From contig NC_088867.1 in the NCBI RefSeq assembly GCF_032884065.1, forward strand, positions 24,726,018 to 24,790,017: DNA of 64,000 bases, written 5' to 3'. This DNA is from Artemia franciscana. Its lineage: Eukaryota; Arthropoda; Branchiopoda; Anostraca; Artemiidae. The position numbers and the translations under genes are program-made. The notes beneath the pieces are model-generated. The model had not been told where the DNA came from. It worked only from the letters and a program-made list of their open reading frames with translations, and did not search any database. Shown in pieces: positions 14,402 through 62,762 of the stretch (within the stretch, counting starts at the first letter, position 1; each line of letters begins with the position of its first letter).

Positions 14402-16145
14402 TTAAATAAAAAAAAACTAGTTTTTTTAACTGAAAGTAAGGAGCGACATTAAAACTTAAAACGAACAGAAATTACTCCGTATATGAAATGGGTTGTCCCC
14501 TCCGCAGTCCCTCGCTCTTTATGCTAAAGTTTGACTCTTTGCCACAATTCTACTTTTTAAAACAATTAAAAACTTTAGCGTAAAGAGCGTGGGACTGCGG
14601 AGGGGACAACCCATTTCATATACGGAGTAATTTCTATTCGTTTTAAGTTTTAATGTCGCTCATTACTTTCAGTTAAAAAACTAGTTTTTTTTTATTTAAT
14701 TTCTGAACGTTTTTGAATTAATGCATGTTTGATTTTGGCTCTCCGCACATAAATTATTGAAATGAAATTAGTATATTAATTTTTTTTGGCTAAATGGCTT
14801 TCTCTTAGTTTTGATCAGACGATTTTGAGAAATAAGGGGTGGGGAAGGAGGCCTAGCTGCCCTCCAATTTTTCGGTTACTTAAAAAGGCTACTAGAACTT
14901 TTAATATTCAACGAACGTTTTTATTAGTAAAAAATATACGTAACTTAAGAATTAACTTACGTAACAAACTTTTATATTCTTATATTTTTATTATGTGTAC
15001 GAGGGGGTTTGTACCCTCGTTAATACCTCGCTCTTTACACTAAATCGTAAGTTTTGTCCCAATTCTTTAAGAATGACCCCTGAATCAAAAAGGCCGTAGA
15101 ATAAATAGTTGAAATCGCTAAAAATATTTTAGCATAAAGAGCGAGGTATTTATCTCCTCCTAAATACCTCGCTCTTTATGCTAAAGTATTTTTAGAACCC
15201 CTCATATGCGTAATAATCTCTGTTCGTTTTAAATTTCAATGCTATTCCTTACTTTCATTTGAAAAAACGTTTTCATGTTTATTTTTTCATTGTTTTTTTT
15301 TAAAGTAATGCTAGAAAATCCTGCGCCCTTTTCTTTGAATTTTTCTTCCCCCATGACATATTCCTCAAAGGAAAGATCCTCCCACAAAGCCCTCTCCCAT
15401 CAACCCCACCCCCAAACCAAAAAATCCCCATGAAAACGTCTGTACACTTCCCAATAACCATTACTATATGTAAACACTGGTCAAAGTTTGTAACTTGCAG
15501 CCCCTCCCTCAGGGATTTTGGGGGAGTAAGTCATTCCCAAAGACATAGTTATTATGGTTTTCGACTATGCTGAACAAAATGGCTATCTTAAAATTTTAAT
15601 CTGTTGACTTTTGGAAAAAAAATGAGCATGGGAGGGGGCCAATTTGCCCTCCAATTTTTTTGGTCACTTAAAAAGGACACTAGAACTTTTCATTTCCGTT
15701 AGAATGAGCCCTCTCGCGACATTCTAGGACCACTTGGTCGATGAGATGACCCTTGGAAAAAAAAAACAAAACAAATAAACACGCACCCGTGATTTGTCTT
15801 CTGGCAAAAAATACAAAATTCCACATTTTTTAGATAGGAGCTTGAAATTTTTGCTATAGAGTTCTCTGATATACCGAATGCGATAGTGTGATTTTCGTTA
15901 AGATTCTATGACTTTTAGGGGATGTTTCCCCCTTTTTTCCAAAATAGGGCAAATTTTCTCAGGCTCGTAACTTTTGATGACAAAGACTAAATTAATTGAA
16001 ACTTATATATTTAGAATCAGCGTAAAAATTCGATTCTTTTGATGTATCTTTTAGCATCAAAATTTTTAGCATCCGTTTTTTAGAATTTCGTTTACTATTG
16101 AGCCGGGTCGCCCCTTACTACAGTTCCTTACCACGAACTGTTTGA
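14402..16145 (+). mobile_element. FB17 foldback element, copy A1
   Basis: Starts TTAAATAAAAA after an A, carries the foldback hairpin (arms about 14412-14530 and 14575-14697, four or so mismatches), the body, and ends with a slightly altered 3' hairpin and CTGTTTGA at 16145. There is no ORF of note. With A2 it forms the insertion in the LINE RT. Confidence 0.85.
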
Positions 16146-16477
16146 AAAGATAATAATTCGGTATTTCGGGGCTTCTGACATTATTACTCCTTGGCGGAAG
16201 TTAGGCTCAAAATTGAAAAAGGATTATATTTTTTCTCTAGGCCCCTTCCACCTCTTAGTTCGTTTATTTTCCCGTTAGTTTTCACCTGTTTTCGCTTTAT
16301 AGTTGTGTTATCTCTTAGCAGTTCTTTCGTTAGTTGAGTTATGGTTGTGGTATATATGTTTTATCGCTCGTATAGTTGTGTTATTTTCAAATTATACTCC
16401 ATAATAGAGAGGCTCCGAACACCCAGCATTGTATATTAAGCTCTTAATTTGACGTTTTTTTCTAACGTGACCAGATT
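16146..16477. other. Spacer between FB17 copies A1 and A2
   Basis: About 330 bases unlike FB17, with several GTTGTGTTAT-type words (for example near 16300, 16345 and 16375). It belongs to the LINE insertion as a whole and is not LINE sequence. Source not recognised. Confidence 0.5.
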
Positions 16478-17297
16478 CGTCCTGCGCCCTTTTCATTGAA
16501 TTTTTTCCCCCATGGCATATTTCTCCAAGGAAAGATCCTCCCACATAGCCCCCTCCCTCAACCCTACCCCCAAAACCAAAAAAAATCCCCCTGAAAACGT
16601 CTGTACACTTCCCAATAACCATTATTATATGTAAACACTGGTTGAAGTTTGTAACTTGCAACCCCTCCCCCAGGGACTGTGGGGGAGTAAGTCATACCCA
16701 AAAACATAGTTATTATGATTTTCGACTATGCTAAACAAAATGGCTATCTCAAAATCTTGATCCGTTGACTTTGGGGAAAAAATGAGCGTGGGAGAAGGCC
16801 TAGATGCCCTCCAATTTTTTTGGTCACTTAAAAAGGGCACTAGAACTTTTCATTTCCGTTAGAATGAGCCCTCTTGCGATATTCTAGGACCACTTGGTCG
16901 ATACGAGAACCCCTGGAAAAAAAAAACAAACAAATAAACACGCACCCGTGATTTGTCTTCTGGCAAAAAATGCAAAATTCCACATTTTTGTAGATAGGAG
17001 CTTGAAACTTCTACAGTAGGGTTCTCTGATACGCTGAATCTGATGGTGTCATTTTCGTTAAGATCTTACGACTTTTAGGGGGTGTTTCCCCCTATTTTCC
17101 TAAATAAGGCAAATTTTCTCAGGCTCGTAACTTTTGATGGCTAAGACTAAACTTGATGAAACTTATATATTTAAAATCAGCATTAAAATGCGATTCTTTT
17201 GATGTAGCTATTGATATCAAAATTCAATTTTTTAGAGTTTTGGTTACTATTGAGCCGGATCGCTCCTTACTACAGTTCGTTACCACGAACTGTTTGA
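16478..17297 (+). mobile_element. FB17 foldback element, copy A2 (3' half)
   Basis: Begins in the body (CCTGCGCCCTTTTCATTGAA) and runs to a perfect 3' hairpin and CTGTTTGA. The next base, T at 17298, completes the interrupted LINE codon. The 5' foldback part is absent. Confidence 0.85.
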
Positions 17298-18026
17298 TAA
17301 AACGAAATTTGTCGTTTTCTCGCGTTGTAACACTGCAGTTCCTGAGCTTCAACTAATTGAATCAAATGATTTTAAAATAAAGATTTCACGAGCAGCAACT
17401 ATGCGATACCTCGGAGTCCTCCTTGACTCTAATCTATCATGGAAGCCTCATATATCTAATCTGCGGATGAAATTGGGGAGAAATATAGGTATAATGCGAA
17501 TACTCAGGTCATCCCTTCTCTTTGAAGCAATGAGATCACTTTATTATGCACTTATTCATTCTCATTTAATGTTTTCATCCCTTGTTTACCTTAACACATT
17601 TAGTTCTCATATTATGCCACTTCAGAGACAACAGAACAAAGCTTTGCGGGTTCTTAAGGGCTATTTGCCTTCCCCTAAATTATATCCAGCGAAGTCATCA
17701 GCTGATTCTCTGTATTGCTTCCTTAATATTCTTCCTTTAAGACATTTTGTGCCGGTTGAATCTATCCTTTTCGATTTGAAGTATGGCCGTGGTTTGCTTC
17801 CCTCGTTTTTTTTTTCTGGAACCTTTTCCCACTTAAAAATATTGACCACGGCCATTTAACTAGAAATTTCAATAAATTATATCAGCCAAGAATAATAAAT
17901 GAAAGATCGAAACTTTCCTTTCGAAACTCGGTAATTCGGTATTGGAATATTTATACGTTTAAATTGGATACTTCAAAATCAATTAAAACAGCTAAACGAA
18001 AACTTAAATTTACGTTGATTTATTGA

Positions 18027-18411: not shown

Positions 18412-20048
18412 TTAAATAAAAAAACAAGTTTTTTTAAATGAAAGTAAGGAGCAACATTAAAACTTGAAACGAACAGAAATTACTCCGTATATGAAAGGGG
18501 CTTTTCCTCCTTAACGTCCGCTCTTTACGCTAAAGTTTCTTACTGTTTTAAAAATTGAGTTAAGAGAAAGAGTCAAACTTTAGCGTAAAGAGCGAGGCGT
18601 TGTGGAGGAAAAGCTCCTTTCATATACGGAGCAATTTCTGTTCGTTTTAAGTTTTAGTGTTGCTCCTTACTTTCATTTAAGAAAACTTATTTTTCTGATT
18701 TAATTTCTGGACGTTTTTGAATTAATGCATGTTTTGATTTTGGCTCTCCGCACATAAATAATCAATACAAAATTTGCATATTGATTAATTGCAATTAATC
18801 GGAAGATCTTGAGAAAAAAGGAGCGAGGGAGGAGGCCTAGTTTCCCTCCAATTTTTTTATTACTTAAAAAAGCAACTAGAACTTTTAATTTTTTACAAAC
18901 GTTTTCATTGGTAAAAAATATACGTAACCTACGAATTAACTCACGTAACGAACTTCTATATTCGTATGTTTTTATTGCGTATATGATTTGGTTCAACCCT
19001 CGTCGATACCTCGCTCTTTACACTTAAGCTTAAATTTTGTCCCAATTCCTTAAGAATGACTCTCTGAATCACAAAGGCCGTAGAACAAATAGTTGAAATT
19101 ACTAAAAATACTTTAGCGTAAAGAGTGAGGAATAACGAGGAGGTAAGCCCCTCATATGAGTAATAATTTGTGTTCGTTTTAAGTTTTAATGCTGCTCCTT
19201 ACTTTCAGTAGAAAAACCTTTTCATATTTACTTTTTCATTGTTTTTTTTTCAAATAATGCTAGAAAATCCTGCGCCTCCTTCATTGAAATTCTCTTCCCC
19301 CATGAGAAGTTTCTCCATGGAAATATCCTCCCACGTAAACCCTCCCCTCCTCAACTCTCCCCCCGAAACCAAAAACGTCTGTACACTTCCCAGTAACCAT
19401 TACTATATCTAAACACAGGTCAAAGTTTGTAACTTGCAGCCCCTCCCACGGGGACTGCGAGGGAGTAAGTCGTCCCTAAAGACATATTTATTAGGTTTTT
19501 CGACTATGGTGAATAAAATGGCTATCTCAGAATTTTGATCCGGTGACTTTTGGGAAAAAATGAGCGTGGGAGGGGGCCTAGGTGCCCTCCAATTTTCCGT
19601 TAAAATGAGCCCTCTCGCGACATTCTAGGACCACTCAATCGATACGATCACCCCTTGAAAAAAAACAAACAAAAAAAAAACAAATAAACACGCATCCGTG
19701 ATCTGTCTTCTGGCAAAAAATGCGATATTCCACATTTTTGTAGATATGAGCTTGAAACTTCTACAATATGGTTCTCTGATACACTGAATCTGATGCTGTG
19801 ATTTCCGTTAAGATTGTATGACTTTTAGGGGGTGTTTCCCCCTATTTTCTAAAATGAGGCCAATTTTCTGAGGCTTGTAACTTTTGATGGGTATAACCGA
19901 TCTTGATGAAACTTATATATTTAAAATCAGCATTAAAATGCGATTCTTTTGATGTAACTATTGTTATCAAAATTTCCATTTTTTAGAGTTTCGGTTACTA
20001 TTGAGCCGGGTCGCTCCTTATTACAGTTCGTTACCACGAACTGTTGGA
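18412..20048 (+). mobile_element. FB17 foldback element, copy B
   Basis: About 1.64 kb from TTAAATAAAA to CTGTTGGA. The hairpin arms share copy-specific variants (AAATGAAAG for AACTGAAAG, GAGCAAC for GAGCGAC, GCTTTTCCTCC), but the distal parts have begun to diverge. Confidence 0.85.
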
Positions 20049-20059: not shown

Positions 20060-20310
20060 TCAATTAAATCGCTTACTTTTCTGCGGTGGTTCCCCTTTTT
20101 CAAAAAAAAAAAAAACAAGCAAATTTTCTCCGATTTTTGGTTTGAGTGGGAAACAATAAACTGAAAGAATTTATATATTTAGAATCAGCTTAAAAAGCCA
20201 ATACTGCAGGTATAGCAATTGGCTTGAGAATTCCATTTTTAGTTTTGGTGAATACTGGTCTAAGTTGCTTTGTACTACCAGCTTTTTTTTATCACAAACT
20301 ATTTGACAAG
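20060..20310 (+). mobile_element. Old FB17 3'-end fragment
   Basis: Strongly diverged copy of the last ~230 bases: TTTATATATTTAGAATCAGC, CATTTTTAGTTTTGGTGAAT and a decayed terminal hairpin ending ACTATTTGACAAG. Its divergence shows that the family has been active over a long time. Confidence 0.55.
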
Positions 20311-22020: not shown

Positions 22021-23381
22021 ATTAACCAAAAATTATTTATATACGGATCAGCTAAGAAATGTCTCCTGAAGAAACTTGACACCACACCTCATGCAATCTT
22101 AAGAAGGGCCCTTGATGGCCTAAAATCTACTCCTATTGTAGCTATGTATTGTGAAGCAGGGATCCAGTCCCTTCACTCCAGAAGAAAATACCTCCTTGCA
22201 AGATATTTTGCTAAGAAAATAAGACTCAGGAACCATATTATCTACAAAGAAATTATCAGCCACCGCAACCCTGAAATCCACTTAAACCAACAGAGATGTC
22301 TTCTTTCCAGAGATTCCTTTGCCTCCCGGGCATGGAAGAGTTCATAGAGAATGGCAGGCTGACTGTCAATTTGGATGATGATTTGTCTTAGTGCCTCCAA
22401 AGGAATTAATCAATTGATTATTCCTAAGATCACCATCAAAAAAAGGAGGGCCTCCCCCAAGCACTGATGAAAATCATATTCCTGGGAAAGCTGGCAGAAT
22501 ATGAGGAATACATTCAAGTTTATACAGATGGCTCAAAGACAGTAACAAAATGCAGTTGTGCAGTAGTTATACCCTCCCAGAGCCTGTCTCTTTCATACCG
22601 TTTACCCCCTAACCTGACAATTTTCTCTTCAGAGCTTATGGCAATTAAGTTTTCACTTCAAGCCATATCAAGCCAAACAGAGAGCAAACATCAGAAGTAT
22701 ATTGTCTGCTCCGATTCACTTTCAGCTCTGGATTACCTCTCACACCAGCAACACCAAGCAAGAAATGTTGCCATTGAGATTGAAAATTTGGTTACTCAAC
22801 TTGCAAAAAAGGGTATATCTGTTCTATTGATATGGGTTCCAGCACACTGTGGTATAACAGGAAACGAACTAGCAGATCAGGCTGCAAAACAAGTCTCCCA
22901 ACTAGGCCTGATCACCCAAACCCCTATCACTGGTCCTGAACTTCTTTCTTCAATTAGCTCAAAAATTTTTGAAGAAGAAGAAGCCTGGCTCCATTCTTCT
23001 CATACTCAGCTCCTCGATCTCTATGATTATAAGCAGCCTTCAAAAGAAATGTACCTCACTTCTCGCATCCTTTCTACCTGCCTATTTCGTCTTAGATGTG
23101 GCCATGCAAAGACAAAATCAACACTATTCCAGTGGAAAATGGCTCCATCCCCCAACTGTGACACTTGTGGAGTGTCTGAAGATATACGTCACATCATCTT
23201 AAACTGTAGAAAATACGAAAAAGAGAGAGAAGTACTAAGAAATTGCTGTGAGAAGGTATTTAGTGCATTCACAATGCGTTCTGTTCTGGGACATCAAACG
23301 TCTCCTCCTTGGGATAAAAAACTAAGCACAAACCTATTAGGTAGATTTCTTAAGACTACTGGTTTGGTTCATTCCCTATAA
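22021..23381 (+). pseudogene. LINE-B: end of RT, RNase H and zinc-finger C-terminus
   Basis: The frame from about 22021 reads IYGSAKKCLLKKLD and continues to 22346 (RRALDGLKSTPIVAMYCEAG, LHSRRKYLLARYF), the region behind the RT of I-like LINEs. After a frame break at about 22346-22467 comes an RNase H domain: VYTDGSK with the first Asp, SSELMAIKFSL with Glu, IVCSDSLSALD with Asp, and WVPAHCGITGNELADQAAK with His and Asp. All four catalytic residues are present. A CDTC-x-H-x-C zinc knuckle (CDTCGVSEDIRHIILNC) follows. The protein ends at 23381. RNase H points to the I/LOA/R1 group. The element is 5'-truncated and degraded. Confidence 0.85.
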
Positions 23382-27695: not shown

Positions 27696-29396
27696 TCAAA
27701 CAGTTCGTGGTAACGAACTGTAGTAAGGAGCGACCCGGGTCAGTAGTAACCAAAACTCTAAAAAATGTAATTTTGATACCATTAGTTACATAAAAAAAAT
27801 TTCATTTTTACGCCGATTCTTAATATATAAGTTTCATCAAGTTTTGTTTTACCCATCAAAATTTAAGGGGCTGAGAAAATTTGCCTTATTTTAAAAAATG
27901 GAAGGAAACAGCCACTAAAAGTCAAAAAAGTTTAACGAAAATCACATCATGAGATTCAGCGTATCAGAGAACCCTACTGTAGAAGTTTCAAGCTCCTATC
28001 TACAGAAATGCGGAATTTTGTATTTTTTTTTTTTTTTTGCCAGAAGGCAGATCACGGATGCGTGTTTACTTGTTTTTTCTTTTCCCCAGGGGTGATCGTA
28101 TCGAACCAGTGGTCCTAGAATGTCACGAGAGGGCTCCTTCTCACAGAAATTAAAAGCTCTAGTGCTCTTTTTAAATGATTAAAAAATTGGAGGGCACCTA
28201 GGCACCCTCCTACGCTCATCTTTCCCAAAGTTACTAAATCAAAATTTTGAGATAGCAATTTTGTTCAGTATGGTACAAAAATTTAATAATTATGTCTTTG
28301 GGGACGACTGACTCCCTCACAGTCCCCGGGGGAGGGGCTGCAAGTCACAAACTTTGACCATTCTTTACATAAAGTACTGGTTATTGGGATATGTACGGAT
28401 GATTTCACGGGGACTTTTTCGCTTTAAAGGGGGGTCGGAGGAGGAGGTTACGTTGGAGGATTGCTCCATGGAGGAATTTATCATGAGGAAAGAAAATTTC
28501 CATGAAGGGTCCGCCAGATTTTCTAGCATTCTTTAAAAGAATAATGAAAAAATAAATAAATAAAAAGTTTTTTGCGGTGGAGGTAAGGAGCAGCATTAGA
28601 ACCTAAAACGAACAGAAATTTTTACGCTTATAAGGGGCTTCGTCTCCTCCACAATACCTCACTCTTTATGCTGAAGTATCTTTAGTAATTTCAACTATTT
28701 ATTTTTCGGCGTTTGTGATTCAGGGGCCATTCTTAAAAAATTGGGACCAAGTTGAATCTTAAGTGTAAAGAGCGAGGTATTCACGAGGGAGAGCACCCCC
28801 CTCATATACGTAATAAAAATATACAATTATAGAATTTCGTTATGAAAGTTAATTCGTAAGTTACGTATATTTATTACTAATAAAAATCTTCGTAAAAAAA
28901 GTTCTAGTTGCCTTTTTAAGTAGCCAAAAGTTGGAGTGCAACTAAGCTTCCTTCTCCACTTTTTATTTAACAAAATCATCTGGTCAAAACTACGAGAAAG
29001 CCTTTTAGCGAAAAAAAAAAATACTGTGCAAATTTCGTTTTAATTATTCATGTACGGTGAGCCAAAATCAAAATATGCATTAATTCAAAAACGTTCAGAA
29101 ATTAAATGAAAAAAAACAAGTTTTTTAACTGCAAGTAAGGAGCAACATTAAAACTTAAACCGAACAGAAATTATTCCGTTTATGAAGGGGTTTTCCCCTC
29201 CCCAGTGCCTCGCTCTTTACGCGAAATTTTTAATTTTTTTTTAAAGTAGAGTTGTGAGAAAGAGTCAAACTTTAGCATAAAGAGCAAGGTATTGAGGAGG
29301 GCACAACCCCTTTCATAAACGGAATGATTTTTGTTCGTTCTAAATTTTAATGTCGCTCCTTACTTGCAGTTAAAAAACTTGTTTTTTTTCATTTAA
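27696..29396 (-). mobile_element. FB17 foldback element, copy C
   Basis: 1.70 kb. Minus-strand 3' end TCAAACAGTTCGTGG at 27696 with A before it, and 5' end ATTTAA at 29391-29396. The foldback hairpin lies at about 29100-29390. The arms share TGCAAGTAAGGAG in place of TGAAAGTAAGGAG, a copy-specific change on both sides. Confidence 0.85.
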
Positions 29397-30227: not shown

Positions 30228-31965
30228 TTAAAAAAAAAAACAACATTTTTTTTAACTGAAAGTAAGGAGCGATATTGAAACTTAAAACGAACAGAAACTA
30301 TTCCGTATATGAAATGGGTTGTCCCCTCCGCAATCCCTCGCTCTTTACGCTAAAGTTTTTAATTGTTTTAAAAAGTAGAATTGTGGCAAAGAGTCAACCT
30401 TTAGCGGAAAGAGCGAGGGGTTGCGGAGGGGACAACCTATTTCATATACGGAGTAATTTCTCTTCGTTTTAAGTTTTAATGTTGCTCCTTACTTTCAGTT
30501 AAAAAAATAGTTGTTTTTTATTTCTTTATTTAAAAAAATTGTTTTTTTTATTTAATTTCTGAAAGTTTTTGAATTAATGCATGTTTGATTTTGGCTCTCC
30601 GCACATAAATTATTAAAATGAAATTTGCATATTAATTCTTTTTTTTGGCTAAATGGCTTTCTCTTAGTTTTGATCAGACAATTTTGAGAAATAAGGGGTG
30701 GGGAAGGAGGCCTAGTTGCCCTCCAATTTTTCGGTTACTTAAAAACGCAACTAGAACTTTTAAGTTTTAACGAACGTTTTTATTAGTAAAAAATATACGT
30801 AACTTAAAAATTAACTTACGTAACAAACTTTTATATTCTTAAATTTTTATTTTGTATATGTGGGGGTTTGTCCCCTCGTTAATACCTCGCTCTTTACGCT
30901 AAATTTTAAGTTTTTTCCCAATTCTTTAAGAATGACCCCTGAATCAGAAAGGCCGTAGAATAAATAGTTGAAACTACTAAAAATGCTTTAGCATAAAGAG
31001 CGAGCTATATCTCCTCCTAAATACCTCGCTCTTCATGCTAAAGTATTTTTCGAACCCATGATATGCGGAATAATCTCTGTTCGTTTTAAGTTATAATGCT
31101 ACTCCTTGCTTTCAATTGAAAAAACTTTGTCATGTTTATTTTTATATTTTTTTTTATAGTAATGCTAGAAAATCCCGCTCCCTTTTAATGGAATTTCTCT
31201 TCCTCCAAGATATATTCCTCTAAGGAAAGATCCTCCCAAATAGCCCCTCCCCTCAAACCCACCCCAAAACCAAAAAATCCCTCTGAAAACATCTGTAAAC
31301 TTCCCAATAACCATTACTATATGTAAACACTGGTCAAAGTTTGTAACTTGCAGCCCATCCCCCAGGGACTGTTGGGGGAGTAGGTCATCCCCAAATATAT
31401 AGTTATTATGGTTTTTACTATGCGGAACAAAATTGCTCTCTCAATATTTTAATCCGTTGACTTTGGGGAAAAATGAGCGTGGGAGGGGGCCTATGTGCCC
31501 TCCAATTTTTTGGTCACTTAAAAAGGTCACTAGGACTTTTCATTTCCCTTGGGTGACATTCTAGGACAACTTGTTCGATACGATGACCAAAAGAACAAAA
31601 AAACATGCACCAGTGAACTGTCTTCTGGCAAAAAATACGAAATTCCACATTTTTGTAGATAGGAGCTTGAAATTTTCTTTATAGGGTTCTGTGATAAGCT
31701 GAATGCAATGGTGTGATTTTCGTTAAGGTTCTATGGCTTTTAGGGGGTGTTTCTCCCTATTTTCCAAAACAAGTCAAATTTTCTCAGGCTCGCAACTTTT
31801 GATGACAAAGACTAAATTTGATGAAACTTATATATTTAAAATCAGCAGGAAAATTCAATTCTTTTGATGTATCTTTTAGCATCAAAATACTGTTTTTTTA
31901 TAGAGTTTCGTTTACTATTGAGCCGTGTCGCTCCTTTCTACAGTTTGTTACCAGGAACTGTCTGA
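30228..31965 (+). mobile_element. FB17 foldback element, copy D
   Basis: 1.74 kb, TTAAAAAAAA to CTGTCTGA. The hairpin (30240-30525) keeps GTTGTCCCCTCCGCAA/TTGCGGAGGGGACAAC in both arms. Mid-body differences in the second, imperfect palindrome resemble those of copy A1, so A1 and D form a subgroup. Confidence 0.85.
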
Positions 31966-34990: not shown

Positions 34991-35038
34991 GCAGTTTGCC
35001 CATTGTGTTTAAAAACTAAATGTTGCCTTAAGAATAAA

Positions 35039-40599: not shown

Positions 40600-41045
40600 T
40601 TAAGCGGTGCTGAAGAAAAAAATTTTCATCGACAATTTGGGAGAAAAGGAGATTTGAAGGGACGGGGGCTAGATTCCCTCCAGTCTTTTTTGATCACTTA
40701 ATAAGGACACTACAACTTCTAATTTTGCTTTGAATGAGCCCTTTCTCGATGTTCTAGGAAAATTGGTTGGATACGATCACCCATGGCAAAAACGAATAAA
40801 CGCGCATCTGTGATCTTTCATCTGACAAAAAAAAATTCAAATTCCATGTTTTTGCAGATATGTGCAAAACGATCTTAATGAAAATTACGGTGTATGATTT
40901 TCGTTAAGATCTTTTGCTTTTAGGACCCCCACTTTTTTTTAAAGTTAGGCAATTTTTCAAGCTTGTAGTCTTTGCTGGGTAAAATTGAACTTAATTAATC
41001 TCATATATTTAGAATCACCATAATAAGCCAATTCTTTTATATATC
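40600..41045 (+). mobile_element. FB17 fragment (body)
   Basis: Body words in order: GGGCTAGATTCCCTCCAGTC, GATCACTTAATAAGGACACT, TGGATACGATCACCCATGG, AACGCGCATCTGTGATC. It stops short of the 3' hairpin, and repeat R2 copy 3 follows at once. Confidence 0.65.
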
Positions 41046-41052
41046 AATTAAA

Positions 41053-46600: not shown

Positions 46601-49483
46601 GAAAAATTAGAAAACTTAAGAACGGGTGATCAGACCTTAATGAAATTTAATATTTAGAAGGATTTTGTGCTTCAGCGCTCTTATTTTAAATCCTGATCAG
46701 ACCCGGTGAGAGTGGGGGTAGTTGAAGGGGAAACCGGAAATCTTAGAAAACGTGAAAATTGAGGTATCTTTATCTCATGTATGGGTGATTGGATCTTAAT
46801 GAAACGGGATATATAGAAAGATCATATGTCTCAGATGCTCCATTTTCAATTCAGATCGGACTCGGGTCGTAGGGGATTGGAGGGGGGAAACAGAAATCTT
46901 GGATACTGGAAGTCTTGGAAAACGCTCAGAGTGGAGAGATCGGGATGGAACTTGATGGAAAGAATAAACACACGTTTTAGATACATGATTGACAGATGGA
47001 ACGGATCTTCTCTCTTTGGGGGAGTTGGGGTATTCCCAGTGCTTTGGCGAGTTTGGTGCTTCTTTACGTGCTAGGACGATGAAAATTGGTAGGCATGTCA
47101 GGGATCTGCACAAACTGACTTGATAACAGTCTTTTCACCGATTCGACCATCTGTGGGCTGGAGAGAGAGAAAAAAATTGAAAAAATGAGTACGAATATCT
47201 CAGAGCTCTTATTTTAAATTTCGACCAGATCTGGTGATATTGGAGGGGGGGGAGATAGAGGGGGAAATCGGAAATCTTGGATAACGCTTAGAGTGGAGAG
47301 ATCGGGATTAAACTTGGTGGGTAGAATAAGCAAATGTCGTAGATACGTGATTTACATAACCGGACTAGATCCACTCCCCTTGAGGGAATTAGGGGGTCAA
47401 GTGCGTTGGCGAGTTTAGTGCTTATGGACGTGCTAGGACGATGAAAATTGGTAGGAGTATCAAGGACCTGCATGAATTGACTTGATAAAAGTCGGTTTCC
47501 CCGATTCTACCATTTGGGGGGCTGAAGGGGGAGGAAAAACTAGAAAAAAAATAAGTATTTTTTAACTTACGAATGGTTGATCGGATCTTAATGAATTTTG
47601 ATAATTGGAAGGACCTCGTGTCTCAGAGCTCTTATTTTAAATCCTGACCGGCATTAAGCCTCTGATTTTTCTATTTAATCAGTCTATTGATTCTTAGAAT
47701 TTTGCTAGAGCTCATACCATATGAGCTCTTGGCTCTTGGCTCTTCCGACCTCGTCACAAGTGTCATATGAGCTCTTAGCTCTTGTTTTAACAACTATTGT
47801 TATTATTACGATGGGGATGCACCCACTATCCCTGGTTCGAGACTTGTATCTTTAAGTCCCATTGCCTCCAAGAAGGTAATGACACTGTTAAAATACTACT
47901 TTAATTTTTGCATGTCTAGTTGCTATTATTTTTTTTTATTTTTTTTTTATTTTTTTTTTTTTATGTACAGATGCACAGCTGGCAATAACACTGCTTTTGT
48001 ATAGGATGACTTATGAATACCAATTACCAAACAATGAACTCCTGTAAGACAACACAATAACAGTTGAAAATTCGCTCTCTGTACTCTGTGTTTCAAATGT
48101 CAAATTGTTATTGTAAAATTATTTTTCTTTGACAGATAAAAGTTAGACGACTAGATAAGACACTAAAAAAAAAGTGAATTTTTGTGTATTTCCTGTTGAT
48201 GGTCAATGCTTAAACTCTGAACAAATTGTACTAGCAGGAGCGTCTGCCACTGCTTCGGTGGGGGAAACACATAGAACTGTCATTATTAAGTTTTTATAAC
48301 AGATCCTTATGCAAGTTTTGGTATGTTATTTTGTGCCGCGCTGGGGTTTAGTATCTTTTGATAGCTAATATTCAGTTTTGTCTATTTATCAATTTATATT
48401 TTTGAAGTGTATTTTTTGTAGATTGAAAAATACGTTGGATTGATACGAAAATAGGAAATACAACTTCTGTAGTCCTTCTTTATGAAAAATCCTAAGCAAT
48501 ATTAGCATTCTGACTTGGTGAATGAATAGTTTTGAAGCTTATGAATCTAGTATTGTTTCCTGTCCTTGTGGAGCAAATTACATTTTCAGGTTTATCGTAA
48601 AATAGCCTTTTTCACGAGGAAGATAAACTATCTATTTGTTTACTAAAAGTAGCTCATTCATTTTCGAAGTTAATTCGGAATTTGTAGCGTTAAATTGAAT
48701 AGTGACCTTTTGGATTTGGAAGCTCTGCGGGAATTATTAGCATTAAGCAGAGGCATCAATTAAGGGTGTGGTTGGGGCAAGGTGGTGGTGGTATTCCTCC
48801 TCCAAGACTTTTAAAGAGTTTTCTGGTATTTTCATTGAAAAACACGCCTTTTTCTCCTTTTCATTGAAAGCGCCGAATGGATAAAAAAATAGTCTGCTAT
48901 TCCCCCTGGATTTTGAAAAATACACTGTATCCCTTCCCCTAGATTTTTTGAATTGTGCCCGTGGTTGTGAGCTGTTTACCTCATTTTTTAACATGTGCAA
49001 ACCTTAACCCATTAGCAGCTGGCTAACGTTCTGTCAGTAGCCAGTCTGTGTTGAGCAACGAATTTGAAATTCTCTGTCTATATTAAGTATTACGTAATTC
49101 CTTAATGATATTAAATAAAAAAAAAACAAGTTTTTTTAACTGAAAGTAAGGAGCGACATTAAAACTTAAAACGAACAGAAATTACTTCGTATATGAAAGA
49201 GGCTGCTTCCTCATCAACGCCCCGCTCTTTACGCTAAAGTTTGACTCTTTCTCTCAATTCTTCTTTTTAAAACAGTAAAAAACCTTAGCGTAAAGAGCGG
49301 GGCGTTGATGAGGAAGCAGTCTCTTTCATATACGAAGTAATTTCTGTTCGTTTTAAGTTTTAATGTCGCTCCTTACTTTCAGTTAAAAAAACTTGTTTTT
49401 TTATTTATTTAATTTCTGAACGTTTTTGAATCAATGCATGTTTTGATTTTGGCTCTCCGCAGAGGAAATATCAAAACGAAATT

Positions 49484-49514
<31 letters not shown>

Positions 49515-52500
49515 GGCTAAATGGCTTTCTCATAATTTTGATCGAATGATTTTGAGAAAAAAAAGAGCGGGAGAGGAAGCCTAGTTGCCCTCCGATTTTT
49601 TGGTTAATTATAAAGGCAACTAGAACTTCAAATTTTTTACGAATCTTTTTATTAGTGAAAGATTTACGTAACTTATAGATTAGCTTACGTAAAGAACTTT
49701 TGTATTCTCATGTTTTTATTACATATATATGAGGGGGTTCGCCCCCTCGTCAGTACCTCGCTCTTTACACTAAAGCTTAAATTTTGTCCCAATTCATTAA
49801 GAATGACCCCTGAATCACAAAAGCCGTAGAATAAATAGTTGAAATTACTAAAAATACTTTAGCGTAAAGAGTAAGGTATTAGAAGGAGGTGAGCCCCTCA
49901 TATGGGTAATAATTTCTGTTTGTTTTAAGTTTTAATGCTGTTCCTTACTTCCAGCCGTAAAAACTTTTTCATATTTATTTTGTAATTGTTTTTTTTTCAA
50001 TAATGCTAGTAAATCCTGCTCTCCCTTCATGGATATTTTCTTCTCCCATGACAAATTCTCGATGGAAAACTCCCCTAGCATATCCCCCTCTTCTCAACTC
50101 CTCCCCCCAACCAAAAAAATCCTCCTGAAAACGCCTGTACACTTCCCAATAACCATTTCTATATGTAAGCACTGGTCAAAGTTTGTAACTTGTTGCCCCT
50201 GCCACGGGAACTGTGGGGGAGTAAGTCGTCCCCAAAGACATAGTTATAAGGTTTTTCGACTACGCTGAATAAAATGGTTATCTCAGAATTTTGATCCGTT
50301 GACTTTGGGAAAATAATTAGTGTGGGAGGGGGCCTAGGTGCCCTCCAATTTTTTGGTCACTTAAAAAGGGCACTAGAACTTCTCATTTCCGTTAGAATGA
50401 GCCCTCTTGCAACATTCTAGGACAACTGGGTCGATACGATCACCCCTGGAAAAAAAAAAAAAAAAACAAATAAACACGCATCCGTGATCTGCCTTCTGGC
50501 AAAAAATGCAAAATTCCACATTTTTGTAGATAGGAGCTTGAAAATTCTACAGTAGGGTTCTCTGATACGCTGAATCAGAGGTGTGATTTTCGTTAAGATT
50601 CTATGACTTTTAGGGGGTGTTTTCCCCTATTTTCTAAAATAACGCAAATTTTCTCAGGCTCGTAACTTTTGATGGGTAAGACTAAACTTGATGAAACTTA
50701 TATATTTAAAATCAGCATTAAAATGCGATTCTTTGGTATCAAAATTCCATTTTTTAGAGTTTTGGTTACTATTGAGCCGGGTCGCTCCTTACTACAGTTC
50801 GTTACCACGAACTGTTTGACAATTACGAGGTCGTATTAAAAAAGCATCGGGAATGATAAGATTAATCGTAAATCGGTTTGAGCATGAACTTGCACGTGCT
50901 ATATTAATCTAATTTTTTGTGTTGGGAAAATATATTAGACATAGATTAGATTAAAATTGTGTCAATCGGCTCCTAGATGCGATTAAGTAAAGTGTGTTTT
51001 TACGTCCTATCGGATTTCATTATGAGTTGCTCTCAGATGAGCAAAAAGATAGCCGAAAATAGATCGCCACTGATTTGCTAGTGTTCTGAATTTGATGATA
51101 TTTTTTTTTTTAAATCAATTATAACTGGCGACGAGACTTGGGTATAAGAGACTCGTATGGCTATGATTCAGAAACAAAGGTAAAATCTTTGTAGTGGAAA
51201 ACACTTGATTCACGACAACCCAAAAAAGTTCGCAAAGTGAAGGCTGTGTTGACTGGCTTTTTTAACTTCCAAGGTGTTGTTCGTCATGAATATGCTCCAA
51301 AAGGACATACCATAACAAAGGAGTACTGCATTGGTGTTCTTTGTCGTTTTTGAGACGCTCTGCGGAGAAAAAGACCCGAATTTAAAGAGTCATTGGAAAT
51401 TGTATCACGGTAATGCACCAGCCCATTCAGTCCGTTTTGTGCAGCGATTTTTGGCCAAACATGATTTCCCAGTTGTTTCTTACCCCCCCCCCCCCACCTT
51501 GTCCCCTTATTCACCAGACCTAGCTCCATGTGATTTTTTTGTATCCTCAGAGACAAAAATGGCACTTAAGGGTAAATGTTTTCAAGATGTAGATGAAATA
51601 AAACAAAATTCGACGGAGCAGCTACAAGGTGTTTCTAAAAAAGACTTCAAGAAGTGTTTTGAAAAATGACAGGCACCGAGACTTCAACAGGCACATGTAT
51701 AGACTCAGGAGGAGCATATTTTGAAGAGGATTGAATGTAATTAACTCTATCTAATAAACATGTATGCCTTTTTTTGTAGTAGTTTTTTAGTAGTATGCCT
51801 TTTTTTAGTAGTTTTTCGGTAATAATATGTTCCATAAATCTTTTAGTTTTCTCCATATTGTAGAAAAATGAGAGCAGCAAAGAGGAAGATAGATAGATAG
51901 ATACATGTTTATTTACAACAAGAATTAAACCATATAAACAAACAGCGCAACTGCCTAATGGCATACTTAAGCGCGTGGTATTCACAAAAAAAAAATAAAC
52001 ACAAACAAAAGAAATAACCGTCCTTACTTCGGCTTAAACTAATGTGCACTTCTTAAGGAAATCAAACTTCAACACTCACAACGGAAAATACTGTGGGAGA
52101 CTAGCAACATGATTCCTTAATAACTTCAGAAATTTGTTTCTATCATTACTATTTCTCACAGCTATTGGGATTAAATTCCAAACTTTTGGGCCAATATGAC
52201 GCAAACTAAATCCCGATCGCACCGTTGGCCTAATTTAAAAAGAGAAATCAGAACTATAAGATGTTGGGTAATTGTGGAATTGTGAAGATCAGGACTGAAA
52301 TTAATCTAGATATAAATTGGCAATTATAAATAAGTCTACAGTTTGTAATTCTACTTTTTTAGAAAACTGTGCGATTTTACTTACAAGTAAAATCATATTT
52401 GGAAAATTAGTCCAAAAATAGTTCAGCTATTCAACACAATGCCGTGTAGCTTTAATTTGGTACTTTCGAATCGTGTAAAAAATTTCCTGTGTAACAAAGA

Positions 52501-54330: not shown

Positions 54331-55232
54331 AACACCTTCAAATCCTGACTTTCTCAATGTTTTTTTGAAGGAGCTATGAAATCCCGTCTCTGTGGAAATG
54401 ACCCAAAATCGTTAAACTCGTTTTTTGCAAGAATGTATATACGACCAATAAAATCAATGAATATTTCGCTCCCGAATCATATCTGCTTTCATAACATATA
54501 TTTTGAAGAAAAATATACCTACCCTATTAATAACTATTGGTTCTAAAATTGTGTACAGACTTTTAGCTCCTAATTAATGTTTTTCGGAGAAATTGATGAA
54601 AAATCCGTTGGAAAAGGTGCTAATGACTTCAAATACCGGTAATATAATGGGGATCTTAATGTTGAAATGAGGTCACAAGACGGCAGTGTATACCCTAACT
54701 TCTGGGTTGTTTTCTTTTATATTGAAGCTTTCCATTAATATTTGTGCAGGGATTCCTGAAACTTGACATTCCATTTTTTTAAATAGTAACTATGGTGTTT
54801 TGTGTGTGTTTCTGAATGATGTTTCTAACCACTTTAGAATACTAGCCGTCTTTGGAATTTACGTGTAGACCTCAAAGGGATGGTACCAAACAAGTTTATG
54901 TTGACAGAACCTCATTAATTGCTTTGTAAAAGAGACTAGAAAGTTCCATTTCTTTTAAAATATTATTTTCCTTTATCCCACTTTAACCAAAGTAGTAGCT
55001 TACTTCCCTGTACAAAACATAAAGATATCTTTTATTGGGCCTTAATCTCACTATTTTAAGAAGGCATATGTTTTAAATATAAGGATGTTTTATATGTGCA
55101 TAATTTCTCTTATTTCAAATATCCTTAATAATGGAAACATCTTCTAATAAGTGAAATATTTGTAAAAATTGGTAGGTCGACATATTAAATTATTGGCAGA
55201 CAACAAACTAAGTAGATTTTTTTTATCAATTA
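54331..55232. other. No recognised feature
   Basis: AT-rich DNA without coding or repeat signal. Confidence 0.45.
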
Positions 55233-55690
55233 TCCAACAGTTCGTGGTAATGAACTGTAAGCAAGGAGCGACTCGGCTAAATAGTAACCGAAACTCTAAA
55301 AGACGGAATTTTCATATCAATGGATACATCAAAAGAATCAGATTTTTATGCTGATTTCAAATCAAGTTTAGTCTTACCCATCAAAGGTTACGCGAGAAAA
55401 TTCGCCTTATTTTGGAAAAAGAGGGAACGTCCCTTAAAAGTCGTGGAACTTTAATAAAAATCACACGATTAGATTCAACGTATCAGAGAACCCTAGTATC
55501 TACAAAAATGTTGAATTTTGTATTATTCTTTTTGCCAGAAGAAAGATCAACGGATGCGTGTTTATTTGTTTTTTTCCCAGGGCTGATCGTACCGACTCAA
55601 TGGCCCTAGAATATCGTGGAGGGCTCATTCAAATGGAAATTTAAAGTTCTAGTGCCCTTTTTGAGTGACCAAAAAAATGAAGGGCAACTA
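55233..55690 (-). mobile_element. FB17 fragment (3' end)
   Basis: Starts TCCAACAGTTCGTGGTAATG with T-to-A flank as in full copies and runs inward to GTGACCAAAAAAATGAAGGG, where similarity stops. Confidence 0.8.
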
Positions 55691-55789
55691 GCATTGCATT
55701 TTCTGTGTTTTTCAAATCAGTTATTTTGTAAGCTACTGAAAGCTATATAATAAATATGTTATGCATAGAAAAAATATTATGGAAAATTC

Positions 55790-56586: not shown

Positions 56587-57935
56587 GTGTAAGAAAGGTG
56601 ACAAGAGTGAGTGTCATAACTATCGAGGCATTAGTCTGGTCTCTGTAGGTAGCAAATTACTTAGTAATATGATAATTTTTAGACTGGGAGATGCTGTAGA
56701 CAAAGTTTTAAAAGAAGAACAGTGCGGTTTTAGTAGGGTAGAGGATGTGTCGACCAAGTTTTCACTCTTGGGTTAATAATTGAAAAGTTCCTTCGTTTTC
56801 AAACACCTTTGGTCCTCAGTTTTATAGATTATGAGCAAGCGTTCGATTCTGTTGATAGAAGAGTTTTAGCAGAGGTCTTATCCTTATATCATATACCAGA
56901 CAAATACATTAAAGTGATTTGTGCTATGTATGAGAAGAATCCTGCTGCGGTTAAGGCAGGAAATGAGGTTAGCAACTGGTTTTGTATTAAAATCAGGAAT
57001 TAAGCAAGGTTGTGTTCTATCCCCCTCTATATGGATCATTTTGATGGACTTCGTCTTAAGGAGCATAGGAAAGGCGATTGGAGACCAAGGAATCAAACGG
57101 GGAGAAAAAGCTCTGCTGGACTTAGATCATGCTGATGATTTAAGCATATTAGATGAAAGTGTGAGCAAAATAAATGAATTTTTGAGGTTTTGCGAGGTCA
57201 GGGTGCTAGAATAGGTCTGAAAATTAATGTTAATAAGACTAACTCATTAAGGCTAGGAATAAGTGAAGATGAAAAAGTGACGTTAGGTAACGAAAAGATT
57301 GATAAGGTTGGCAGCTTCAATTACCTTGGTAGTGTTATTAGTAAAGACGGTGGAAGCAGTGAAGATATTAAAAGTAGAATAGCTAAGGCTCAGTGTGTTT
57401 TTTCAAAGTTACAAAAAGTTTGGAAGAATAGGAAGATAAGTCTGCAAACCAAGATTAGAACATTGGAAGCTACAATGATGATAGTGGTCAAATATGGCTC
57501 TGACGCATGGGTAATCCGAAAAGCGGATGAAAATTTACTAGATGTTTTCCAGAGAAATTGCCTATGGATTGTTCTGGGTACCCGGCTGACTGACCGTGTT
57601 TCAAACAGGAGGTTGTACGAAAAATGTGGTTCAGTCCCGCTTTCTAGGGCTATAATGAAAGAAACGTTGAGATGGCCTGGCCACGTTTTGCGGATGAAGG
57701 ATGCAAGATTGCCGAAGATTGTCCTTTTTGGCCAACCGTCTGGGGATACACGGAAAGCAGGTCGTCCTCGTCTGGGGTGGAAGGATGTCATAAATATGTT
57801 TAAGAAAAGGTTTAAAGGAAATGGGAACTTCCTGGGAGGGTGTAAAGAGAAAGGCCTTGAATAGATTAGGTTGGAGGAGGAGCGTGCGTAGCTGTGTTGG
57901 CCTCAGGTGGCTTGGTGCTGCAGTGAGTTATTAGT
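56587..57935 (+). pseudogene. LINE-D: RTE-like reverse transcriptase, 5'-truncated
   Basis: Open pieces at 56587-56776, 56809-57003, 56921-57214 and 57190-57864 overlap into one protein with three frame breaks: [19 protein letters not shown] (fingers), FIDYEQAFDSVDR (motif A with Asp), IKQGCVLSPSIW (motif B), HADDLSIL (motif C, HADD for YADD), FNYLGSVIS, then KYGSDAWVIRKADENLLDVF, TDRVSNRRLYEKCG and LRWPGHVLRM, the C-terminal domain usual in RTE-like elements. The endonuclease and start are missing. The frameshifts and the HADD change suggest an inactive copy. (TA)n tracts frame it on both sides. Confidence 0.8.
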
Positions 57936-58214: not shown

Positions 58215-59430
58215 ACCATTGAAGCGATCTTATTGAAAATCACACCATGAAAATCCAGTATCACAGAGAACGCTAATGTAGAGGTTTGACGCTCCTCTAC
58301 ATTTTTCATTTTACCAGAAAAAAATCATGGATGTGTGTTTTTTTATATTTATTTCCCAAGAAACGATAGTATTGAACCAATGGTCCAAGAAGGTCGGGAG
58401 AGGGCCCATTCGTACGGAAATTAAAAGTTTTAGTGTCCTATTTAAGTGAACAAAAAGATTGGAGGGCAATCATCCCTCTGCCGAGATCCCTTTTCCCCAA
58501 AGATATTCGATCAAATTTTGAGAAAGACATTTGGTTCAGAATAGTTTAAAGTTCCAATAGCTTTACCTCTGGGGATGGCATTACCCCCACAGCATCTTGG
58601 CAAAGGGCTGTAAGTTATATAATTTGTGAGGATTTTCTACGGGGAGAATGTTCCGTGGGGAGGAAAATTTCTGGGTGAATTTTTCAGGGGAATTTTCTGA
58701 AATTCTGTTTATTTGTCTTTCGGTCTCTCTGGCTGGCCAATTTTGCATGTGGAGAGAATGTTCCGAGGAATTCCATGGGGAGAATTTTCAGCGAGGATGG
58801 AATTGTCTGGGCGGATTTTACAGTGGTGGTGGGGTGTTTCCCGGGAGCAATTTTTCATAGGGTAATTATCTGCGAGATGAACTGTATATAGGGATTTCTG
58901 GTATGATTTGAAAAATGATTAGGAATTGGTCTAATAAAAAGCTTTTTTTTCAATGAAATTAAGGAGAATTTTCAGGTGGAATTTTAGTTTCAAGTGGGAT
59001 TTGAAGCGGAAGGAACTTTTCCCTGGGCAATTTTCTGCGAGAAGGTTTCCTAGGGGTAATTCTCCACGGAAGGAGGAGGGGGCAATTTTCCGGCATGATT
59101 TGAAAAACAATTAGATATTAAAAGAAAATCAGCTGAAAGTAAAGAGCAACACCAACATTTAATGCATCAAAAATTATTCTGTGTATGGGGGGGGGGCTGC
59201 CCCCTCCTCAATTCCTTCCTCCATATGCTGAAGTTCGACTTTTTGTCTTAATTCTTTAAGAAACACTCAACTTGAATAAGTTCAACTGGAATAAGAATCT
59301 TTTTTAAAGCAATTAAAAAAAAACTCTAGCGTAAAGAGCGTGGGATTGAGGAAGAGGCAGTGTCCCGCCCCTCATATACGGAATAATCTATCTTCTTTCA
59401 AGTGTTAATGTTGGTCCTTACATAAGGCTA
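58215..59430 (-). mobile_element. FB17 relic, older, lacks 3' end
   Basis: Runs on the minus strand from the AAAATCACACCATG region through GATTGGAGGGCAATCATCCC, GGAATTTTCTGAAATTC and the imperfect palindrome with GCGTAAAGAGCGTGGGATTG (59332-59351). The terminal hairpin is missing and the centre differs from the young copies. Confidence 0.65.
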
Positions 59431-59454
59431 AGTTACTTTCATTTCGATTTAAGG

Positions 59455-60169: not shown

Positions 60170-60235
60170 AGACCCGCTAAATCGCAGTTTTACCAGGCTT
60201 AGTCTCTAGTAAGTTGTTTGTAGCAGTAGTGGTAA
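60170..60235 (+). mobile_element. LINE-D family 3'-end fragment, more diverged
   Basis: ACCAGGCTTAGTCTCTAGTAAGTTGTTTGTAGCAG resembles the end of LINE-D and of 59455-59545. Short and uncertain. Confidence 0.35.
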
Positions 60236-60639: not shown

Positions 60640-60998
60640 TACGTAGAAGAGATTCATTTTTCGGTTACTGAATATATTGAGTCCTATGTGTGGAGAGATT
60701 TATGAGTGTTTGCATCATTTTTTAGGGAATTGTAGGGAGTTGCGCTTGGAAATATTTGGTAGAGAGGTCGTGAGGAGAGATTGGACTTAGGAAATTTTGA
60801 GAAGTAGGTATTACTTAAGTATAAATAATATTGGAAAGCTCGTCCGGGTATTTATGAGGTATTGTAATGATTTTCTTAAATAATTAGTTTTAGTGTCTTT
60901 TCAGTCTATGTTTTGGTTCTGTATTTTTTCGCTTGTTTCGTGTATGTCACCATGGCCCAATTGGGCTTTCGTGTGAATAAATCTATCTATCTATCTGT
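60640..60998 (+). mobile_element. LINE-E 3' end fragment
   Basis: One frame gives PMCGEIYECLHHFLGNCREL, a C-x-H-x-C zinc knuckle like that closing I-like LINE proteins, then a stop and RYYLSINNIGKLVRVFMRY. The 3'UTR has GGCCCAATTGGGCTTTC and ends AATAAATCTATCTATCTATC. Heavily 5'-truncated. Confidence 0.65.
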
Positions 60999-61315
60999 AC
61001 ACTGCTCTTCAGTCGTACAACATTCGTGCGAAAGGAGAATTACTAGTAACAGGTTGTCAAGATCTAATGAAAGAAAAAGTTTCAGTGAATAAATATTCTT
61101 TACTAGGAAATTGAAATGAATTTCTTACAATAAGTGTGTGCAAGCTTGTGTGAGGATAGGAGCTACATATATATCACTCCTTTAGGGGCTCAGCCAGTGC
61201 TTTCACTGTCCCTGAATTTTTAGGGTTTTCACCAAAAGAAAATAATGTCTCCATGAAAATTGAAGCTCCAAAAAACAAAGAGTCTTACTTTAAATTCGCG
61301 CCTTTTGGCAAAATT

Positions 61316-62762
61316 TCAAACAGTTCGTGGTAACGAACTGTAAGTAAGGAGTGATCCGTCTCGATAGTAACCGAAACTCTAAAAAATGGACTTTTGATAC
61401 CAATGGATATATATAAGAAATAGGCTTATTGTGTCGATTTCAAATATATAGTTTCATTAGTTTATGTATAAGTTTCATTAAGTTTAGTCTTACTCATTAA
61501 AGACTACAAGTCTGAGAAAATTTGCCCTGAGCCTGAGAAATATATAAGTTTCATTAAGTTTAATCTTGTCCATTAAAGAATACAAGCCTGAGAAAATATG
61601 TCCTATGCTCGAAAAAAGAGGGATACACGCTCCAAAAGTCATAGAATCTTAATGAAAAGCACACAATCAGATTCAGCGTATCAGAAAAACCTACTGTAGA
61701 AATTTCAAGCTCCTATCTGCAAAAATGTGTAATTTTGTGTTCTTTTTCAGAAGAATGATCGCACCTGCGCGTTTTTTTTTTCTTTTTCTAGGGGTGATCG
61801 TATCGACCCAGTGGTCCTAAAATATCGTGAGAGGGCTCATTTGAACGTAAGTTCTAGTGCCCTTTTTAAGTTAACAAAAAAATTTGGGGCAACTAGGCAC
61901 CCTCCCTGCCCCTTTTTCCCAAAATCTTCCGATACCATTTTGGGATAGCTATATTTTCCTCATACTTGAAGAGCCCAATAACTATGCCTTTGGATATAAC
62001 ATGACCACCCTCCCAGCCTAAAGGAAAAGGTCTCTAAGTTTTAAAATTTGCCCATTGTTTACGCATAGTATTCGTTTTTGGGAAGATTGCATACATTTTC
62101 GGGTGGGGGGAGAATTTCTGCTAGAGGTTTTTACACGAGGGAATTTTCCATGGGAAGGAAAGTTTCCTCGGGGCGAACTTGTCAGAGAAAATTATACACT
62201 GGGGGAATTTGCCAGAATTCCTATACAAAATTATTTTATATGTCTTGCTTTCTATTTTTCGTCTCAGTTTTACAGGTGGAGTTGTTAACGGTAATTATTC
62301 CGGGGTAAATTTTTACCAAGATTGAATTGTCTAGAAGATATTTCCCTGGGAAGGAGTATTTCCCTGTGGAGGTGGGGCCAGATTTCCTGGCATTATTTAA
62401 AAAACAATCAGAAATTAAATATTAAATAAAAACAAGTTTTTTCAAATGAAAGTAAGGAATAAAATTAAAACTTAAAACGAACAGAAATTCTTACATATAT
62501 GAAGGGGTTTATCCCCTCCTCAACATCTCGGTCTTTTAGCTAAAGTTTGAATTTAGTCCCAATTCTTTAAGAATGACTCCTGAAACACAAGGGTCGTTTA
62601 ACTAGAACAATAACCTTTTTAACAGTACTAACATAGTTTATCGTAAAGAGCAAGATGTTGAGGAGGGGGTAACTCCCTTCATATACGTAATGATTTCTGT
62701 TTTTTAAGTTTTAATGTTGCTCCTTTCTCTCAGTTGAAAAAAACTGTTTTTTGTATATTTAA
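61316..62762 (-). mobile_element. FB17 foldback element, copy H
   Basis: 1.45 kb. 3' end TCAAACAGTTCGTGG at 61316, 5' end ATTTAA at 62757-62762. The 5' hairpin has a longer centre with AATTCTTTAAGAATGACTCC, so the first arm appears joined to the second palindrome by deletion. A local duplication of ATATAAGTTTCATTAAGTTT lies at 61455-61565. Confidence 0.8.

Follow-up and report, generated by a model that had tools for sequence, protein, structure and literature searches.

FB17, an abundant element of Artemia franciscana with rolling-circle-like ends and a 5' palindrome present in two loop orientations

The stretch of Artemia franciscana DNA analysed here (the window; C5:24726018-24790017, 64,000 bases) is rich in FB17, a repeat with a long palindrome at its 5' end and a short hairpin at its 3' end. 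We mapped the family in the window by BLAST with copy F (49111-50819, plus strand) as the query, in an assembly of 1.27 Gb and 6,468 contigs that served for all genome searches. Long single matches at 73-81% identity were obtained for copies A1 (14402-16145, plus), B (18412-20048, plus), C (27696-29396, minus), D (30228-31965, plus) and E (35035-36729, plus); A1 is full length (TTAAAT...CTGTTTGA), and E is the most diverged of the six complete copies, with a left end uncertain by a few bases. The seventh copy, H (61316-62762, minus), carries deletions and a larger, different loop, and matches F piecewise at 67-76% identity. Compared with a majority consensus built from the seven copies, identities are 82-92%, and 76% for H. 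Fragments include two 3' ends (G at 55232-55691, minus; 678-743, plus), a piece 3' of copy B (20112-20306, plus), pieces at 40619-41049 (plus) and 58227-58626 (minus), and part of a palindrome to which no strand is assigned (59129-59421). Together, FB17-like sequence occupies 14,808 of the 64,000 bases (23.1%) in 18 intervals, the seven copies and 11 others. The initial annotation of this DNA, which reported an abundant element with seven near-complete copies and at least nine fragments over more than a fifth of the window, is borne out in these respects; it listed A1 but missed the run of that insertion to 17297, the two orientations of the loop and a second, internal palindrome.

Abundance is equally evident across the genome. 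The 3' hairpin CAGTTCGTTACCACGAACTG has eight sites in the window at up to three mismatches (five of them exact; 0.00 expected), and the 13-bp word AGTAAGGAGCGAC has 26 at up to two mismatches (0.44 expected). Genome-wide there are 30,572 exact hairpins and none in a reversed-sequence control; TTTGA follows directly in 27,661 of them (90.5%). A word of 28 bases that lies immediately inside the 5' palindrome has 9,598 exact copies. Five exact hairpins in 64 kb is about three times the genome density, which, set against the 23.1% share of the window, suggests as a rough estimate, rather than a measured share, that FB17 may make up some 7% of the genome. Neither the consensus nor copies A1 to F (H was outside this check) contains an open reading frame (ORF) from ATG longer than 79 codons, in agreement with the earlier statement that the element is non-coding.

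One insertion reveals the exact boundaries of the element. A reverse-transcriptase ORF (12855-14401, plus; Pfam RVT_1, E=1.1e-23) is broken after ...GCTGA at 14401 and resumes in frame with TAAAACG at 17298, so that the sequence from 14402 to 17297 interrupts it. With the joined flanks as the query, 40 of 80 candidate loci were scored and 12 fetched; all 12 are exact empty sites that need no duplicated base. Ten read GCTGA joined directly to TAAAACG, and the other two, L047 and L048, each show a single-base difference four positions ahead of the junction. Because these sites are exact, the element begins with TTAAAT and ends with TTTGA, without duplication. The empty site alone is compatible with a one-base shift at T or with a duplicated AT, which would give the same letters at the tested site. 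However, if AT were duplicated, both of its letters should be retained alike. The terminal A belongs to TTTGA, which is kept as a block in 90.5% of exact hairpin copies, whereas the following T is found after only 70.5% of the 27,661 TTTGA ends (TTTGAT, 19,489 copies). Thus, end statistics disfavour an AT duplication.

Flanking preferences were read from palindromes fetched at the first 80 of 100 listed places of the 28-base word, all on contig 1, 70 of which have both arms. The starting motif TTA[AC]A[TA], with its 5' T, was recognised in 61 of these 70. Sixty distinct left ends from those 61, together with six window copies, gave a set of 66; the nine palindromes lacking the motif and copy E were left aside, and F, placed two bases too far to the left in this count, is likewise preceded by A. 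Of the 66 as counted, 62 have A on the left. Positions -12 to -8 are pyrimidine-rich, with purines in only 7 of 66 at -11 (p = 2e-11) and in 40 of 66 at -25, and on the right flank of 21 distinct ends the successive positions are T in 16, A in 15 and A in 13. FB17 insertions tend to lie at A^TAA, and a tract of pyrimidines precedes the insertion point by 8-12 nt.

The two ends are unlike each other. At the 3' side, the hairpin stops 5 nt before the terminus, and directly upstream of it, 26 nt from the end, lies one copy of a 13-bp subterminal inverted repeat (AGTAAGGAGCGAC / GTCGCTCCTTACT). In F, this repeat is at 50781-50793 (minus) and the hairpin at 50795-50814 (plus). The 5' copy lies 33 nt inside A1, measured from the boundary that the empty site sets. 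Terminal inverted repeats are lacking, as are a 5'-TC and a CTRR-3', and copy D ends in CTGA. On the ends, most of what the initial annotation described is upheld: the asymmetry, with a 5' foldback and a 20-nt 3' hairpin followed by TTTGA, the subterminal word inverted near both ends, the A on the left flank, and the lack of target duplication, which its proposed empty-site comparison confirms for one insertion. Its figure of T on the right flank in about half of copies is too low, as T follows 70% of exact TTTGA ends genome-wide.

The insertion in the reverse-transcriptase ORF is larger than one element. Its 2,896 bp (14402-17297, plus), delimited by the exact empty site, comprise A1, a 334-bp spacer without a match to FB17 (16146-16479, plus) and A2, the 3' half of a second FB17 (16480-17297, plus), which supplies the 3' end that was used. 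The first hairpin, now internal (16121-16140, plus; one mismatch), was apparently bypassed, and the terminal hairpin CAGTTCGTTACCACGAACTG (17273-17292, plus) is followed by TTTGA and a host T. A query of the spacer with six FB17 bases on each side gave full-length matches of at least 99% identity at all 40 loci scored, the window included, of 817 candidates. The whole insertion with 60-base flanks (element at query 61-2956) was then used, with 40 loci scored of 12,517 candidates. Nine loci other than the window itself span the whole composite at 95-97% identity, with matches that start at query 45-60 and end at 2956-2960; of the rest, 11 match the left end only, 18 the right end only and one neither, and one is the window. 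As nine other loci carry this unit with the same ends, it has spread as one, its internal 3' hairpin unused. Its origin is inferred to be read-through of a 3' end, a behaviour for which Helraiser gives a precedent, in that a missed 3' hairpin leads to read-through to a downstream terminator (PMC4778049). The same search also showed shared internal breakpoints: in ten of the 40 scored loci the long match starts at query 502-503, and in six it stops at 2597-2600.

FB17 itself bears traces of a similar history. Consensus positions 1-322 and 393-508 resemble a second unit at 80-86% identity, an older head-to-tail doubling, and self-matches of F place a second, degenerate palindrome at 49726-49980 (plus), a trace of the tandem dimer. 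A 919-bp FB17-like monomer without the second unit is found elsewhere in the genome, beside a Helentron (L148:817-1735). Separately, at C1:908953-909691 (L068/L069) two copies of the 28-base word occur in the same orientation with 351 bp between them, which may reflect a tandem duplication close to the 5' end.

The 5' palindrome (14402-14700 in A1 and 49111-49410 in F, both plus) is conserved as a paired structure. Ten palindromes align into a 121-bp stem around a central loop of about 40 nt, with pairing in 94.9% of cells, compared with 89.9% after shuffling and 51-53% when one side is slid by a column. Changes on both sides of a pair affect 30 pairs and 68 cells, compared with 15.1 and 22.4 in shuffles, none of 500 of which reached as high. 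In the larger sample, doubly changed arm cells number 226, compared with 81 in shuffles, and this covariation is mostly between subfamilies.

The loop exists in two orientations that are reverse complements of each other, which we term flip and flop. Among the ten aligned copies, four are flip (A1, C, F and L043, a locus with 3,372 N that holds an FB17 5' end) and six are flop (B, D, E, L005, L008 and L050). Of the 70 fetched stretches with both arms, 22 are flip and 48 flop; the remaining ten of the 80, without a recognisable outer arm, comprise five uncalled, three flop and two flip. Five of the 70 were excluded on grounds of arm position or of score; on a tree of the other 65, of which 19 are flip, orientation must have changed at least ten times, compared with a mean of 16.9 and a minimum of 12 under 200 shuffles of the labels. 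Orientation is inherited in part, yet has switched repeatedly. In the 12 closest pairs of opposite orientation, inverting the palindrome adds 64 to 92 to the alignment score; in the 12 closest of the same orientation it costs 28-36. In the closest opposite pair (L060/L098), whose arms differ by 1.4%, the best inversion spans nearly the whole palindrome and raises the score from 536 to 616. For four further pairs (L109/L128, L102/L112, L085/L091 and L061/L104), it is sufficient to invert a central 38-82 nt. No general rule of whole-palindrome or loop-only inversion was retained, the crossed-minus-direct distances being small and mixed.

In our interpretation, to which we give a probability of roughly 0.8, FB17 is non-autonomous and belongs with the rolling-circle transposons of the Helitron2/Helentron kind. 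Support for rolling-circle movement comes from the absence of duplication at the empty sites, the 3' hairpin next to the terminus and the spread of a composite with two 3' ends. The initial annotation had suggested a Helitron-type element, Helentron-like or of a separate class; rolling-circle movement and the absence of TC and CTRR ends are retained, and a separate class is not needed, since the architecture fits the Helitron2/Helentron plan of an asymmetric subterminal inverted repeat and a hairpin at each end (PMC3627910, PMC4067079). Under this interpretation, a RepHel (HUH) transposase supplied in trans would nick the 5' end next to the host A, displace one FB17 strand and stop at the 3' hairpin. 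Where that hairpin was missed, the next downstream 3' end would be used, yielding a two-tailed composite, and an earlier read-through probably made the tandem-dimer FB17 from a monomer of about 0.9 kb. At the single-stranded stage, the 290-nt 5' palindrome may fold as a hairpin, and now and then the hairpin would be copied or resolved, which would keep the arms alike and invert the loop.

How the loop comes to be inverted is a separate question from how FB17 moves. Inverted repeats can invert the DNA between them through recombination. That ordinary chromosomal recombination between the arms, unrelated to transposition, produced the two orientations has close to an even chance in our estimation; it would account for flip and flop only and is otherwise compatible with a rolling-circle transposon. 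Partial inheritance of orientation (10 changes compared with about 17) and the sufficiency of a short central inversion in four of the five pairs favour it, whereas the arms are only 120-145 bp long and about 93% alike within a copy, and the best inversion between L098 and L060 takes in nearly the whole palindrome. A rolling-hairpin step, in which the palindrome is folded, copied and resolved by an HUH Rep so that the end flips and the arms are rewritten from each other, we put forward only as a tentative and rather unlikely possibility. If true, FB17 would be a eukaryotic transposon joining 3' rolling-circle termination with parvovirus-like 5' hairpin replication.

Two further explanations concern the mode of transposition itself. 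Foldback ends and subterminal inverted repeats occur in foldback elements and in elements resembling miniature inverted-repeat transposable elements (MITEs) that are mobilized by DDE transposases. FB17 has both, and a right-flank T in 70% of copies next to a terminal A might be misread as an AT duplication, so a cut-and-paste element could be envisaged whose palindrome is one of two foldback ends, the other having decayed. The exact empty sites without duplication (at one insertion), a 3' end that is a hairpin and no terminal inverted repeat in 30,572 exact copies, and the spread of the two-tailed composite make this very improbable. It is somewhat less improbable, though still unlikely, that FB17 is a degenerate Helitron1 derivative moved in trans by a young canonical Helitron of this genome. 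Canonical RepHels are numerous, with 150 scored of 7,435 candidate places on many contigs. Our check covered five loci of 10 kb around RepHel matches and found intact RepHels of 1,663-1,688 amino acids at L039-L042, within elements that end TC...CTAG; the fifth locus is L043, with its 3,372 N. Over 5.4-5.7 kb the copies at L039-L042 are 99.3-99.9% alike, and this Helitron looks recently active. Also in favour are its A^T target, shared with FB17, and the CTGA end of copy D. However, the terminal sequences and hairpin of this Helitron are unrelated to those of FB17. FB17 has neither TC nor CTRR, and its subterminal inverted repeat and 5' hairpin are features absent from canonical Helitrons (PMC3627910). 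At L042, an apparent shared end was rejected: the FB17 3' end stops at 1528 and Helitron homology starts at 1533 in a TA tract, so the two are merely neighbours. This Helitron also has an N-terminal array of STPR repeats and ends TC...CAGCTAG that lie beside TA tracts.

Several points weigh against our preferred interpretation of FB17. Only one insertion was compared with its empty sites, and the composite would look no different from a read-through product if neighbouring copies had been joined by chance and had then moved together. Two Helitron2/Helentron features are lacking: the 5' repeat is offset by 33 nt, and the target is A^T rather than TT. Neither fits Helentrons, so that membership of the family is only tentative. 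As to the palindrome, orientation is partly inherited, and the number of switches is approximate because several branches of the tree lack support. Coupling within copies is weak: in only 12 of 65 does a copy's own second arm rank as the nearest arm. That arm is closer than the second arms of relatives in 41 of 65, a slight excess that fits matching during copying followed by independent decay after insertion. The loop might also have been inverted by ordinary recombination of one arm with the other.

The search for an autonomous partner adds to these points. The initial annotation had proposed looking for a long element with the same ends and a RepHel gene; none was found between FB17 ends in the few loci read, although Helentron-type enzymes are present in the genome. 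The young canonical Helitron does not qualify, given its TC and CTAG ends and different hairpin. A Helentron protein query matched 56 stretches among 27 scored candidates, and only one of these stretches is open over its whole length. This intact ORF of 2,446 amino acids (C4112:9808-17145; L145, L150) encodes DUF6570, Helitron_like_N, PIF1 and endonuclease domains and places the C4112/C11/C3 family among Helentrons; besides RepHel and endonuclease, it carries a ubiquitin hydrolase (UCH) domain. As a partner of FB17 it was rejected for its different 3' end, where many copies stop at query 131-132 in ...GAGCTCTTAGCTCTTGTT. The 919-bp monomer, 1 kb upstream of the ORF, is read as a nested insertion, because two loci remain homologous to its left. 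Sequence beyond the Helentron 3' end (L152:517-561) resembles the FB17 3' end with a score of 32, compared with a maximum of 31 in 300 shuffles, and is read as an old FB17 remnant. The Helentron 3' end has 2,460 candidate places (40 scored), some in tandem (C7:41894578-41895055, C13:45805801, C4:52244265), and may have a non-autonomous family of its own.

The search also extended to other candidate enzymes. DUF6570 proteins (PF20209) have 47 matches in the genome; two long ORFs on C6 (2,701 amino acids) and C10 (2,492 amino acids), which are not alike in DNA, and a degenerate copy on C8 have no FB17 ends in their fetched flanks. A search for RPA-carrying Helentrons (PF08646) gave one match. 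In viral contigs, a Helitron-like Rep protein query found no match and a Rep motif pattern occurred in three contigs, two of which were read and hold no RepHel ORF (the third is L059). Exact searches with the FB17 3' end in viral contigs, and with its 3' hairpin in prokaryote genome contigs, found nothing.

The window also holds remnants of other mobile elements. An ORF at 9820-10218 (plus) resembles by eye the STPR-rich N-terminus of the canonical Helitron (EEAAQRVYAKKLAADRES...), with no Pfam match at E 0.001, and the stretch 22428-23381 (plus) encodes an RNase H domain, by Pfam, of an apparent retrotransposon lacking long terminal repeats (non-LTR). The ORF at 57178-57864 (plus) we take to be the end of a non-LTR reverse transcriptase, its DUF6451 match lying below that family's cut-off, and the ORF at 51316-51669 (plus; HGNAPAHSVR...DLAPCDFF) is presumably a mariner transposase C-terminus, with no Pfam match at E 0.001.

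Poxvirus telomeres are flipping terminal palindromes associated with hairpin replication. In parvoviruses, too, a flipping terminal palindrome is a signature of viral hairpin replication (PMC1131931). A palindrome that flips and flops on a transposon with tens of thousands of copies thus offers a natural record of hairpin inversion, lineage by lineage. The composite has the same ends at each of several loci and seems to show, in vivo, a new subfamily being founded by 3'-end read-through, and the target rule of a pyrimidine tract 8-12 nt upstream of A^TAA can be tested in vitro. FB17 may also form a large part of the Helitrons that account for 8.81% of the published A. franciscana assembly (PMC11492255). 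Among titles and abstract openings of the Helitron literature on palindromes, inversion and read-through, we found no element like FB17, and no paper that joins rolling hairpin, transposable element, and flip and flop.

Comparison with described elements places FB17 closest to Helitron2 and Helentrons, with which it shares five features: a subterminal repeat, a 5' hairpin, a 3' hairpin, a 5' T and the absence of duplication. In Helitron2 (Bao and Jurka 2013, PMC3627910), the asymmetric inverted repeat measures 8-15 bp (13 in FB17), its 3' copy abuts the hairpin on the upstream side at 20-30 bp from the 3' end (26 in FB17), the 5' repeat forms a hairpin with compensatory changes, and the element starts with T and usually makes no target site duplication. 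By contrast, its 5' repeat lies 0-2 nt from the end (0-4 nt in Helitron2/Helentron elements including HINEs) rather than 33 nt, and FB17 has a stem of about 121 bp, two loop orientations and an A^T target, where Helentrons insert in TT and Chlamydomonas Helitron2 after TTTT. DINE-1 and other HINEs (Thomas et al. 2014, PMC4067079) are likewise very abundant non-coding arthropod repeats with a 3' stem-loop and internal repeats, and DINE-1 has 13-bp subterminal inverted repeats as FB17 does; FB17 differs in its A^T rather than TT target, its long terminal palindrome and the absence of a same-end partner in the loci read. Insertion at A^T, a 3' hairpin terminator and read-through to a new 3' end are shared with Helitron1 and Helraiser (PMC4778049), although the right-flank T is present in 70% of FB17 copies rather than all; FB17 lacks their 5'-TC and 3'-CTRR and adds the 5' palindrome and subterminal repeats. 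The hallmarks of DDE foldback elements and MITEs, terminal inverted repeats and a duplication of fixed length, are absent from FB17. The inverted terminal repeat of adeno-associated virus (PMC1131931) is also a terminal palindrome in flip and flop, an analogy of mechanism only; FB17 has its palindrome at one end, carries no viral genes and partly inherits its orientation, and we claim no relationship. FB17 is thus best described as a variant of Helitron2/Helentron, assigned to no named family, in which the flip-flop palindrome is the surprising part.

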